From the IMG/VR virus record IMGVR_UViG_3300032236_001850, positions 116,392-180,391 of that record: a DNA stretch of 64,000 nucleotides. One strand, 5' to 3'. The position numbers were made by a program, and so were the translations under genes. This stretch comes from a virus. Shown here piece after piece: positions 16,188 to 33,786 of this stretch; position 1 is the first letter of the stretch, and each line of letters opens with the position of its first letter. The notes beneath the pieces are model-generated. The model had not been told where the DNA came from. It ran no database searches and was given only the letters and a program-made list of their open reading frames with translations.

Positions 16188-16222
16188 ATTTTTTTATTCC
16201 GAAATGATTTCATATATTTGCA
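16187..16222 (+). promoter_or_regulatory. early-type promoter
   Basis: TTTATTTTTTTATTCCGAAA, then ATTTCA and TATATTTG (16213-16220). The TAnnTTTG box is the Bacteroidota -7 element. The ATG overlapping the box at 16223 is too close to be the start, so 16244 is preferred. Confidence 0.75.
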
Positions 16223-21966: not shown

Positions 21967-22788
21967 TTATTTTGTTCCAGTTGAAAGTCCAAATGCTGCC
22001 TGAGCGTCCTTTGCATTAACGTCTCCTCCATCCTCGCCGAAAAATTTTCTAGCCCCACTTACTATTTTACCCAGTAATCCTCCAGGATTTTCCTTTGCAT
22101 CTTTCTCATCATTATTAGAAGTTGCAGAGTCACCTCCGATAATATCATCTCCAGGTAAACGTCTTTCTGCATTATCCTTACTAACATCAATCATATCTTT
22201 CTTAACAGCTTCAGTGAAGCTATTATCAAAATCGCTACTTCTGTCCGGGAAGTAATCTATAAATCCAAGAAGACCGTCAACTAGGACAGATCTATTATAT
22301 GCACCTACACCCTGTCCGTCTTTTAGTCTAACATTACCCTCAATTGTTGTGAATTTCTTACCGTTATAATCAACACTAGTAACTATTCCAGCATGACCAC
22401 CACCCTCTCTTTTTGCAATCATTATTTGACCAGGTTTAACTAGAGAAAAATTAGATCTTGCCTGATCTGCAGTTATCTTTTTACCCCCGGTTTTTTCCCA
22501 TTCCTCCAATGCAGAACCAGTTTTATATACTGGATTGGTGATTCCACTTTTTTTACTGAACTCGTCAAAAATATAGTAAATGAAAGCCATACACCAAGGC
22601 TGACCGTCACTTATTCCTACTGATCTCTGAAATTTATTAACATCGGAACCACTATTGTTACCGACCTCCTTCGCTTTTATATTATTTGATATAACCTTAG
22701 CTAGCTCAGATCCAGCTCCTGATGGATTATCTAATTTGAATCCGGAGTCTTCATTTATAAATTCATTGAAACTCTTTAATCTTTCCAT
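21967..22788 (-). CDS. CHAP-type peptidoglycan amidase/endopeptidase with capsid-targeting-like leader
   Basis: The 273-residue protein begins MERLKSFNEFINEDSG (candidate INE/D cleavage). A CHAP-like cysteine hydrolase domain follows: catalytic Cys66 in GQPWCMAFI, His132 in GGGHAGIVTSV, and the acidic TTIEGN at about 147-152. CHAP enzymes cut peptide or amide bonds in cell-wall peptidoglycan. There is no signal peptide. A leader resembling T4 head-targeting sequences suggests the enzyme is carried in the virion rather than acting only as an endolysin. A late-type box lies 20 bases upstream of the start. Confidence 0.85.
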   Translation of the reverse strand: MERLKSFNEFINEDSGFKLDNPSGAGSELAKVISNNIKAKEVGNNSGSDVNKFQRSVGISDGQPWCMAFIYYIFDEFSKKSGITNPVYKTGSALEEWEKTGGKKITADQARSNFSLVKPGQIMIAKREGGGHAGIVTSVDYNGKKFTTIEGNVRLKDGQGVGAYNRSVLVDGLLGFIDYFPDRSSDFDNSFTEAVKKDMIDVSKDNAERRLPGDDIIGGDSATSNNDEKDAKENPGGLLGKIVSGARKFFGEDGGDVNAKDAQAAFGLSTGTK

Positions 22789-23313: not shown

Positions 23314-23345
23314 AAAAAGTCCGATATTGCTATCGGACTTTTTTA
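23314..23345. terminator. bidirectional intrinsic terminator
   Basis: AAAAAGTCCGATA/TATCGGACTTTTT with a TTGC loop between converging genes. Confidence 0.8.
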
Positions 23346-24023
23346 TGCGGTTAGTGTTTTGTTTATATTGTTTATTGTTGATGTTAATTTTCTTTCGTAA
23401 TCTGGAGCTGAAGCATATCTCTGATTGTTTACATTAACAAACTTTTTTAATAACTCAGGAGCAGTTTTATTCTGGGAAGGAACCACATAACTCTTAGCCA
23501 TTGTTCTATAGTAAGCATCGATACCAGATTGCCAATCATTATGGTTAACAACTGCACCGCTATCAACATTACCAACATTGAATGGATTTTTAGTTCTGAT
23601 TGGTTTATTTGATGTGTCTCTACTTAAACCACCCTCCAACGTTAACTGAGCTAAAGCAAGTTGTGGAGGAATATAAGCACCGTGATCCATCACGGCCTTT
23701 TTCGCACCGAGGGCTAGCATTTCACCTTTTATTGGGGATGATGGATTAGTTTTATCAATCCATTTTTGAGCAATATCAGCATAAGCTTTAAATCCTTCAG
23801 AAGTTTTAAGATCCAACGGTGTAAAAATGCTTCCGTCATTAACATTATTTAGACCCAAACTCTTAAGAGCTATTTGATCCGCGGTGTCAGGAATGTCAAG
23901 ATTCAAAGAACCTGTTCCGGTGGTATCGCTATCTGATTTAGCATTAAGTGCATTACTAATTAATAAGGCAGGGTTAAAATCCATCTCATTAATAAAGTCA
24001 CCAAAAGATTTTATGTTGTTCAT
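23343..24023 (-). CDS. glucosaminidase-type peptidoglycan hydrolase with capsid-targeting-like leader
   Basis: The start at 24023 (MNNIKSFGDFINEMD) is preferred over an upstream ATG because the leader then aligns with the CHAP protein and a late-type box lies 20 bases before it. The 226-residue product has the glucosaminidase/lysozyme-like pattern AQLTLEGGLSRD with Glu130 as likely catalytic acid, then TKNPFNVGNVDSG. It would cleave the glycan backbone. With the CHAP enzyme it forms a complementary pair of leader-bearing hydrolases. Confidence 0.82.
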   Translation of the reverse strand: MNNIKSFGDFINEMDFNPALLISNALNAKSDSDTTGTGSLNLDIPDTADQIALKSLGLNNVNDGSIFTPLDLKTSEGFKAYADIAQKWIDKTNPSSPIKGEMLALGAKKAVMDHGAYIPPQLALAQLTLEGGLSRDTSNKPIRTKNPFNVGNVDSGAVVNHNDWQSGIDAYYRTMAKSYVVPSQNKTAPELLKKFVNVNNQRYASAPDYERKLTSTINNINKTLTA

Positions 24024-24043
24024 ATCTATTTGTATTTTATCAT

Positions 24044-24052
24044 CTATATATC
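24044..24052 (-). promoter_or_regulatory. late-type promoter box GATATATAG
   Basis: Minus-strand GATATATAG, 20 bases before the glucosaminidase start. Confidence 0.6.
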
Positions 24053-24069
24053 CAAAAAATATATTCAAT

Positions 24070-24105
24070 AATTTTTTTATTTGGAAATGATTTCATATAT
24101 TTGCA
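24070..24105 (+). promoter_or_regulatory. early-type promoter
   Basis: AATTTTTTTATTTGGAAATG, ATTTCA, TATATTTGC before the 567-residue gene. Confidence 0.78.
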
Positions 24106-24126
24106 ACGTAATCAATAAACAAAATA

Positions 24127-25830
24127 ATGGAATCAGGTACACTACAATTTTGGACAACTGGCGAGGCCTATATGGGCTTAATGAACGACTTTTTTAGATC
24201 TGGAGAATTTGAAAAATATCATCAGCTGCTTGGGGATGGCAACTTAGACAGAGCACAAAAGATGATGGCATTCAGATATAGAATGGTCCTAAGTGGGGAC
24301 ACTAGAACGGAGGAGGGTTTAAGCTGTTCTTTTCTACCAGAAGAGCCAAAAGACTTCAATAAAACACTATATTATGCTATTAGAACAGCTATCGTTGCAG
24401 CTAATAGAAAACATGATAGATGGAACGATAAAACTCTGGAAATAAGAGAGATTGCTAAATCCGGCTACCGAGATATTGTTACTCTACTAGAATATTTTCC
24501 AGTTGAGGAAATCTATAAGAGATGCTACAAATACATCATAGAGGAGGAAGGTTATACGTTAACCACTCTCTACGATGCAATAACTAAAAATGACCATACA
24601 ATCTCGGGTCTTCTAATGAGAAACGGTGAGTTTGCTCAATGTGGTTACCAGGATCACATCTCACTGTATCCATTTCTTGTTCAACTTGGACTTGTAGAGG
24701 GTGAGGACAGATTGGATTGCGATGCAGTATCAATATCATCTAATATGTTATGTGGTGCTGCTGCTTTTGGGTTGGAATCTCTACATTTTGACCTTAATAA
24801 AAGGTATCATCTCAGTGATGAGCAGATGACAGAGTTATGGCGACTTAGAGAATATCATCTACAGCACTACACTAGCAATGAGAAAAGATCAGTATCGGAA
24901 GGAATTCGTGAATTTTTCTGCTACAAAGAAGCAATGGGTGCTAAGTATGGCAACATTATGTTTCTAAAAAGATTTTTTCCACATATCAAAACATGCGAGG
25001 TTTCCAAAGATTTCAGACCAGATTGGAAAGCCAACTTTGTTAGAACCTCACCAAAATATTCAATTCCTGGTCTTCTACATAGTATTAAAGCTAACGACGA
25101 GCAAGAAGCACATAATGCTGTGCTACAAATCCAGAAAGACTTCGAAAAACATAAGGAAGTTCGGGGAAGAAACAATATACATTGGTTCTATCAGGAGTAC
25201 TTGGAAGGGGAGAACGGTGTACTCAATTGCATAAAAACAACGGAGGTTAGCCGTGGATATGCAAGAGAATATGCTAATCTGATGGAATATGACATAAAGA
25301 TAGCATGTAGCTCGGTTCAAGGTGACATTGTGGGTGGTAAGAAATCAAGCTTTGAAATAAGTTTAGACGATCAATCAGCACTAAGAAAGATTGCTAGAGA
25401 ACTTGCAACCACTTTCGAGGAAGACATCCAGCTAGAATTTGTAAGAGTTGCTGAGGGTGACATCAGAATAGTTCAATTCAGAACCCTGAAGGGAAGTCCA
25501 CAGGTAAACTTCGAACCACAGAAGGAAGAGTTGGAAAAAGCTATAGTGATTGGTAAAACTTTCTGCAAACCGTACTACACAAATAATGGCGACGAAATAA
25601 ACACCAACGATATTCTGGTTGTTGAAGAGGATTGCGAATCAGAAGCTCTATTGGGTAAGAAAGCACTTATAGTTGAGAATGACACAAACTTCTCGCACAT
25701 TCTCGCACTATCCAAAGCCCTAAATATTCCATCTATATACGGCACAGGTAAGGTTGATCTACCTAAGGACAAACAGGTTTGGTTTAATACAGGATATGGT
25801 ACGGGGTATGTAAAAATAATCACCAAATAA
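24127..25830 (+). CDS. PEP-utilising enzyme-like protein (ATP-grasp remnant plus swivelling His domain)
   Basis: The 567-residue protein has a C-terminal PEP-utilising mobile domain: TNDILVVEEDCESEALLGKK, then DTNFSHILALSKALNIPSIY with His524 at the position of the phosphohistidine in PEP synthase, PPDK and rifampin phosphotransferase. Before it, DIQLEFVRVAEGDIRIVQFR (about 433-452) matches the end of the PPDK/PEPS ATP-binding domain (consensus iEfa...g.lyilQaRp). The N-terminal 330 residues are not recognised; no PEP-binding TIM barrel is present. Phosphotransfer to an unknown substrate is inferred. Confidence 0.72.
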   Translation: MESGTLQFWTTGEAYMGLMNDFFRSGEFEKYHQLLGDGNLDRAQKMMAFRYRMVLSGDTRTEEGLSCSFLPEEPKDFNKTLYYAIRTAIVAANRKHDRWNDKTLEIREIAKSGYRDIVTLLEYFPVEEIYKRCYKYIIEEEGYTLTTLYDAITKNDHTISGLLMRNGEFAQCGYQDHISLYPFLVQLGLVEGEDRLDCDAVSISSNMLCGAAAFGLESLHFDLNKRYHLSDEQMTELWRLREYHLQHYTSNEKRSVSEGIREFFCYKEAMGAKYGNIMFLKRFFPHIKTCEVSKDFRPDWKANFVRTSPKYSIPGLLHSIKANDEQEAHNAVLQIQKDFEKHKEVRGRNNIHWFYQEYLEGENGVLNCIKTTEVSRGYAREYANLMEYDIKIACSSVQGDIVGGKKSSFEISLDDQSALRKIARELATTFEEDIQLEFVRVAEGDIRIVQFRTLKGSPQVNFEPQKEELEKAIVIGKTFCKPYYTNNGDEINTNDILVVEEDCESEALLGKKALIVENDTNFSHILALSKALNIPSIYGTGKVDLPKDKQVWFNTGYGTGYVKIITK

Positions 25831-25864
25831 TTTTTTTATTCGAAAAGGATTTCTTATATTTGCA
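25829..25864 (+). promoter_or_regulatory. early-type promoter
   Basis: AATTTTTTTATTCGAAAAGG, ATTTCT, TATATTTGC. A TTG inside the box opens the frame, but the true start is the ATG at 25881. Confidence 0.75.
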
Positions 25865-25880
25865 TATCGATTTAAAACAA

Positions 25881-33021: not shown

Positions 33022-33786
33022 ATGAATATCATATACGAAATATACGATCCAATAACTGGTAAAAAATACATAGGATCAAAGACCAACTGGAAAGGTCCAG
33101 GTACATATTACGGTTCGTCAAAAAATCAGGAAATGTTAGATATTATAAAGGAACGCAAATCGACTCTAATATTTAAAATATTAGAGGAGGTTGATTCCAT
33201 AAGTAATATACTTGAAAGAGAGGAATATTGGCAGAGACTGTATGGAGTTGCAGAATCGGAAATGTATTGGAATCAAAGATACGCATATGCTTGGGGATTT
33301 TACATGACAGGAAAAACCCACACGCAGGAGTCAATAGATAAAATAAAAAAGAGCCACAATGATCCAAAGATGGTCAATCACCTTAGAGAAAAAGCAAAAG
33401 AAAAATGGGACGAAAAGAGGGAGAATGGCGAAGATTATTTTAGTCAGGAAGGAATGGATAATTTAAGAAAAGAGGGTGCTAAGGTTGGAAAATTTCCAAG
33501 AAATGAGGAATGGTCAAGAAAACATAGAGAGAGAAAATTAGGTTCCTCCAATACACCAGAAAGTAAAATTAAAGCATCTAAGTCACTAAAGTTAAAATAT
33601 CTAAATGGTGAAATAGAAAATGCTTATGCTAAAAAAGTTATAGCAACATCAGAAACCGATGGAACAGAAACGGAACACAAGTCTATAACACAAGGAGCTA
33701 TCTCAATAGGTTATAAAGCACACAACATAAGACAAGCCATTAAAACAGGAAAGCCATTAGGTGGGTTTTACTGGAAATTAAAGTAG
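33022..33786 (+). CDS. GIY-YIG homing endonuclease with NUMOD motifs
   Basis: The 254-residue protein starts with a GIY-YIG-type motif (IYEIYDPITGKKYIGSKTN; YEIY and KYIG replace GIY and YIG). NUMOD3-like DNA-binding repeats follow (KTHTQESIDKIKKSHNDP) and a NUMOD1-like C-terminus (ISIGYKAHNIRQAIKTGKPL). This is the arrangement of free-standing Seg-type homing nucleases. It sits directly behind the RadA-like gene and is probably a selfish insertion. No intron was seen. Confidence 0.85.
   Translation: MNIIYEIYDPITGKKYIGSKTNWKGPGTYYGSSKNQEMLDIIKERKSTLIFKILEEVDSISNILEREEYWQRLYGVAESEMYWNQRYAYAWGFYMTGKTHTQESIDKIKKSHNDPKMVNHLREKAKEKWDEKRENGEDYFSQEGMDNLRKEGAKVGKFPRNEEWSRKHRERKLGSSNTPESKIKASKSLKLKYLNGEIENAYAKKVIATSETDGTETEHKSITQGAISIGYKAHNIRQAIKTGKPLGGFYWKLK

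Follow-up and report, generated by a model that had tools for sequence, protein, structure and literature searches.

The 567-residue product of a gene carried by a phage of the myovirus type appears to be a self-contained, phage-specific phosphotransferase of the dikinase type. It would transfer phosphate from ATP first to a histidine and then to an acceptor held by its N-terminal domain, a reading to which we assign, from the sequence, a probability of about 0.55. In terms of descent, the protein is probably a distant member of the wider ATP-grasp/phosphohistidine superfamily. The gene lies in a record of 434,509 bp, of which positions 116392-180391 were analysed; this 64-kb stretch is called the window here, and the features discussed are collected in Table 1. 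The order of domains is an N-terminal domain, a putative, divergent ATP-grasp domain of the PPDK type and a putative swivel domain with the histidine. The gene is under strong purifying selection: relative to a homolog with 89% identity, dN/dS is about 0.04, alike in each of the three segments, a value that is approximate since dS is about 1.5 and thus near saturation.

Table 1. Features of the gene and its surroundings. Positions are those of the window, except in the last five rows, where they follow the name of the locus.
Feature	Position	Strand	Basis
Complete ORF, 567 aa, ATG start	24127..25830	+	Full-length homologs, 5 records in all
N-terminal domain, residues 1-265	24127..24921	+	Alignment; without profile or PDB match
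Putative short ATP-grasp domain, PPDK/PEPS type, residues 266-469	24922..25533	+	Segment profile score
Putative swivel/phosphohistidine domain, residues 470-567	25534..25827	+	Segment profile score
GxK-x-G-N/S-L/I loop, residues 269-281	24931..24969	+	Best GGK-profile position, z 4.3; G271, K273, G275 invariant
VR306TSPxxSxPGxLxS, residues 305-321	25039..25089	+	Best profile position, z 6.4; next best 3.3, overlapping
Q435-x-E437-F438...Q450-x-R452, residues 435-452	25429..25482	+	E437, F438, Q450, R452 identical in five members
His524 codon, within F-S-H-I-L-A-L-S	25696..25698	+	Invariant
Promoter-like repeat TTTCATATATTTGCAA before the gene, containing TAnnTTTG	24091..24106	+	Repeat count in window
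Next TTTCATATATTTGCAA copy, directly past the stop of the gene	25850..25865	+	Repeat count in window
Phage 'PPDK' gene with unmatched tail	L017:4401-6464		
Phage 'PPDK' gene with unmatched tail	L018:4551-6704		
Phage 'PPDK' gene with unmatched tail	L019:4303-6507		
Phage 'PPDK' gene with unmatched tail	L020:4392-6467		
Phage 'PPDK' gene with unmatched tail	L021:4569-6506		

Similarity to the Dikinase Core

Searched on its own, the protein gives faint matches. The best one in Pfam is to PEP-utilizers (PF00391; residues 493-544, E 0.015) and the second to PPDK_N (PF01326; residues 400-467, E 0.074). Both are below the curated cut-offs, but the two families are functionally linked and are matched in the right order. 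In a one-genome search, the Pfam model of the His domain reached an E value of 3.4e-4. A match to JetD_C (E 0.12), confined to the His-domain stretch, was taken as chance. A profile search of the PDB with the 567-residue protein produced nothing meaningful, and PHROGs, NCBIfam and PADLOC contained no match to it.

Comparison between profiles is more informative. Against the joined ATP-grasp and His core of a reference set made up of PPDK, PEPS, RPH, two-component dikinases and phage PPDKs, the profile of the five known family members scores 53.4, with a P value of 5.6e-6 that is valid for one comparison and not for a database search, because the references were picked by hand; it is the controls that carry the argument. 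The best of 299 shuffled profiles (by column or by six-column block) attained 28.9 and the reversed profile 22.5. Moreover, the two halves of the core are recognised separately: residues 266-469 match the ATP-grasp references only (36.1, against 14.9 +/- 2.4 and a maximum of 22.1 for shuffles), and residues 470-567 the His-domain references only (29.3, against 13.0 +/- 2.6 and a maximum of 20.6). Independent profiles of short motifs peak in the correct order: that of the GGK loop at residue 269 (z 4.3, the weakest of the three), followed by the profile of the PPDK Arg loop at 305 (z 6.4) and finally, with z 5.7, that of the His motif at 517. A sequence-only reading of this DNA had called the tail of a PPDK-type ATP-binding domain and the His domain clear. 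Both are placed as claimed and the family profile is far above its shuffles; the word clear is too strong for single-sequence Pfam matches below cut-off, which carry conviction only in combination with that profile.

Conserved Residues of the Putative Active Site

Eighteen of the residues in the core are identical in all five members: G271, K273, G275, R306, S308, S312, G315, Q356, E360, G361, D400, V402, G404, E437, F438, Q450, R452 and H524. The last of these is located where the sequence-only reading had put it. To judge from the profiles, residues 269-281 are the predicted counterpart of the GGK loop that holds Lys22 in PPDK/RPH, and residues 305-321, which hhalign in global mode aligned independently, that of the PPDK stretch VRSGAxxSMPGMMDT. 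The PPDK element D-x-E-[FW]...Q-x-R has its predicted counterpart in residues 435-452, with Gln435 in place of the Asp of the metal/ATP site. In RPH, replacement of Lys22 by Ala abolishes activity and replacement of Arg117 by Ala abolishes resistance and the formation of phospho-rifampin, while the Mg ligand Glu297 can be changed without loss (PMC4844700). The family counterparts of the Lys, the Arg and the catalytic His of RPH are invariant at about 30% identity.

Other elements have been rebuilt. In the known enzymes, a conserved T/S-x-x-G-G-x-x-x-H loop precedes the catalytic His (PMC12167813). This Gly-Gly-x-x-x-His loop is absent from all five members, in which His524 is preceded by (E/N)(D/N)(T/V)xFSH, as in ENDTNFSH, LEDTDFSH and RENVVFSH. 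Furthermore, the Lys loop and the Arg loop are merely 33 residues apart, indicating a shortened N-lobe. The lost Gly-Gly, the change of Asp to Gln435 and the short spacing could mean altered chemistry or a partial loss of function; loss is counted against because dN/dS is as low in each of the three segments.

The N-Terminal Domain and Structure Prediction

The N-terminal part had been left without assignment over some 330 residues. It is indeed without a match, but the ATP-binding part starts at about residue 266-271, so that the stretch concerned comprises about 265 residues. Invariant within it are G57-x-x-R60-x-E62, G161, G167-x-F169-x-x-C172-G173-x-x-x-H177, P182, G188-L189 and I203-S204-S205. 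Residues 1-265 gave no match in PDB or family searches, and none above shuffles with profiles of ATP-grasp, His-domain, RPH/HpeH acceptor and PEP-barrel domains. An acceptor domain of the RPH type and a PEP barrel were therefore both ruled out for this stretch, for want of profile similarity. The absence of a PEP barrel, already proposed from the sequence, is borne out at the other end as well, since the protein ends 43 residues past His524. Acceptor domains are exchangeable in the dikinase superfamily, as in RPH and HpeHI (PMC4844700, PMC12167813), and because of such swapping the likeliest role of residues 1-265, by analogy, would be that of an acceptor- or partner-binding part.

Structure prediction, which had been proposed as a check, neither supports nor refutes the assignment. 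AlphaFold2 models were built on three of the five family sequences, and their poor quality is due to too few relatives. The model of the whole protein is unusable (pLDDT 36). In that of the His domain alone (pLDDT 56) the secondary structure is compatible with a swivel domain and the His is situated at the start of a helix; a Foldseek search of this low-confidence model against PDB and BFVD found nothing significant.

Distribution among Phages

The nearest homolog, full-length with 89% identity, is found on a 430-kb IMG/VR contig. Chryseobacterium phages MA9V-1 and MA9V-2 and Tenacibaculum phage pT24 have full-length homologs with 29-33% identity, which are annotated as 'hypothetical protein'. 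Beyond these five members, none was detected in 50,697 phage records, 72,556 plasmids, IMG/VR and one genome per bacterial or archaeal species (GTDB), where the IMG/VR and genome scans were keyed on short conserved stretches that distant relatives can escape. Within the collections searched, the family is thus restricted to phages. It is absent, by profile search with a positive control, from PAU, PTm1, Lak-C1, LR756502, LR756500 and MaF61, which makes its occurrence patchy across the wider group to which these six related jumbo phages belong.

The terminase of the window phage clusters with its equivalents from large uncultured phages and from Bacteroidota jumbo myoviruses (PAU, PTm1, Lak), and the families of its portal, head and DNA polymerase proteins are consistent with a T4-like myovirus. 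About 45-50 recognisable proteins are common to this phage and pT24, and likewise to this phage and MA9V-2. Among those shared with MA9V-2, the 567-residue protein has the best E value (1e-83), followed by the terminase (8e-82); it is conserved as well as the terminase of its phages. None of its gene neighbours is common to the window phage and pT24 or the MA9V phages, and synteny therefore indicates no pathway.

Two other observations concern the record as a whole. The B-family-like DNA polymerase is encoded by two genes about 14 kb apart (379129-380535 and 394862-396007; PHROG matches to the N- and C-terminal parts), and, judged by similarity, pT24 and MA9V-2 have it divided likewise. A 327-residue protein (381119-382102), which by eye we take to be the small subunit of ribonucleotide reductase, is 72% identical to its pT24 counterpart, against about 30% for other shared proteins, which suggests a recent transfer.

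Promoter-Like Repeats and Neighbouring Genes

The window contains 17 copies of the sequence TTTCATATATTTGCAA (with at most two mismatches), against 0.23 expected. The sites precede many genes, nearly all on the + strand (for example at 16208, 21053, 22856, 24091 and 31933). TAnnTTTG is the -7 box of Bacteroidota promoters. The repeat maps the transcription units and points to a Bacteroidota host. With copies both before and after it, the gene looks like a unit of its own, and early expression, as the sequence-only reading had it, would be plausible.

On the other strand upstream are two genes (21967-22788 and 23343-24068) whose products look, by eye, like peptidoglycan hydrolases, CHAP-like and glucosaminidase-like. 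Their N-terminal tags, LKSFNEFINE and IKSFGDFINE, are similar to the capsid-targeting propeptide of T4 internal proteins, and in MA9V-2 a small protein adjoining the portal gene has MKTFTYFINE. Both hydrolase-like proteins may be packaged and injected. A GIY-YIG homing endonuclease is encoded at 33022-33786 (PHROG match, E 6e-14).

Proposed Function and Alternatives

A cycle of three steps can be envisaged. To judge from the conserved site residues, the ATP-grasp domain (266-469) would bind ATP through K273, R306, E437, Q450 and R452; the mobile C-terminal domain would then swing in, so that His524 takes up a phosphate in the manner of PPDK, PEP synthase and RPH; and finally, in what is the weakest step, the swivel domain would move to the N-terminal domain, which would hold the acceptor and thereby replace the rifampin-binding domain or PEP barrel. 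We did not file the protein as PPDK, PEPS or RPH, because barrel, rifampin domain and GG loop were each tested and not found.

The same data can be read differently. That the similarity is a matter of chance and the protein belongs to an unrelated phage family is very improbable: every single-sequence match is weak and the structure models give no confirmation, but the shuffle, reversal and cross-domain controls speak against it, and on the strength of the profile-profile controls we regard chance as excluded. The PPDK type of the core, and genes annotated as PPDK in other phages (PMC12038007), might recall a PEP synthase or PPDK that changes host carbon flow as an auxiliary metabolic gene. 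This is hardly credible for a protein that has no PEP/pyruvate barrel, stops so soon after its His and has an N-terminus unlike a barrel. A non-catalytic descendant, in which the core would have been kept for nucleotide sensing or as a scaffold while the N-terminal domain does the work, appears unlikely. It would account for the loss of Gly-Gly before the His, the Asp-to-Gln change in the ATP site, the short N-lobe and the failure to reach any family cut-off, but not for the invariance of K273, R306, E437, Q450, R452 and H524 at about 30% identity under purifying selection, and it would leave H524 without an obvious role.

A less likely variant retains phosphotransfer and assumes that the acceptor is a macromolecule. 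A protein of host or phage, or a nucleic acid (RNA or DNA), would dock at the N-terminal domain, and the reaction would serve host take-over or counter-defence. In keeping with this variant, that domain does not resemble the acceptor domains known for small molecules, a promoter-like element precedes the gene as a unit of its own and the family is phage-restricted in the collections searched, but known defence proteins offer no match and there is no conserved partner gene. Modification of an antibiotic or a defence molecule, which the sequence-only reading had suggested, is likewise speculative. The preferred reading, a dikinase-type phosphotransferase, may be extended, tentatively and with more doubt than confidence, to a class found only in phages, whose acceptor domain would be new and whose phosphohistidine loop would have been rebuilt without Gly. 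Some Bacteroidota jumbo phages would keep it among their shared genes, and its substrate would be a molecule of host or phage for which phosphorylation of this kind is not known. If true, a protein with a new acceptor-side domain, retained at full length across distant jumbo phages, would point to a phosphotransfer of importance in infection. Since isolated phages that can be cultivated (pT24, MA9V-1 and MA9V-2) carry it as one self-contained gene, it is directly testable.

Comparison with Known Systems

The resemblance to PPDK lies in the Arg loop (VRSGAxxSMPG in PPDK, VRTSPxxSxPG in the phage family), in the E...Q-x-R strand and in the position of the putative His domain C-terminal to ATP-grasp. 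PPDK, however, has a C-terminal PEP/pyruvate TIM barrel, which the phage protein lacks, and an ATP-grasp domain of about 330 residues, against about 200. PpsA has the same core, and the A2 profile aligns with residues 303-462 of the E. coli enzyme (Prob 55, P 1.2e-4). In contrast to both PPDK and PpsA, the phage family has an extra N-terminal domain and a shorter ATP-grasp domain, lacks the barrel and the GG before the His and remains below the Pfam cut-off.

Other phage genes have also dispensed with the barrel. In the 'PPDK' proteins of V-YDF132, LV6, KarBoss, RcZahn and DLP5 (Vibrio, Rhodobacter and Stenotrophomonas phages), and in that of J26 (PMC12038007), an ATP-grasp and a His domain are present, but no PEP barrel can be recognised. 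For J26, the overlap with PPDK covers residues 1-527, yet the protein was read as a PEP-pyruvate enzyme (PMC12038007). Unlike the present family, the proteins of the Vibrio, Rhodobacter and Stenotrophomonas phages start with ATP-grasp, easily pass the Pfam cut-offs and carry an unrelated C-terminal tail. Their similarity to solved PPDK is limited to about residues 3-550 of 874, and their tails of 170-210 residues matched neither the barrel nor the RPH acceptor domain. Three of the five genes have a tyrosine phosphatase gene close behind them. These genes and the family described here apparently represent separate acquisitions, and barrel-less dikinase cores seem to have arisen at least twice in phages, with different added domains.

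The sequence-only reading had been reminded of rifampin phosphotransferase. This holds for the general logic: RPH and the two-component dikinases HpeHI, CreHI and PpsAB combine ATP-grasp and a swivel His domain with a non-PEP acceptor domain, and the Lys and Arg site counterparts of RPH are conserved. It does not hold for the layout, since the order in RPH is ATP-grasp, acceptor, His, whereas here it is N-terminal domain, ATP-grasp, His; the family has a PPDK-type Arg loop, and its N-terminus is unlike the RPH/HpeH acceptor domain, no RIF-binding/HpeH domain being detected in the protein by profile comparison. The dikinase superfamily is known to exchange the acceptor domain and to keep the ATP/His engine, whether for PEP, rifampin or phenols.
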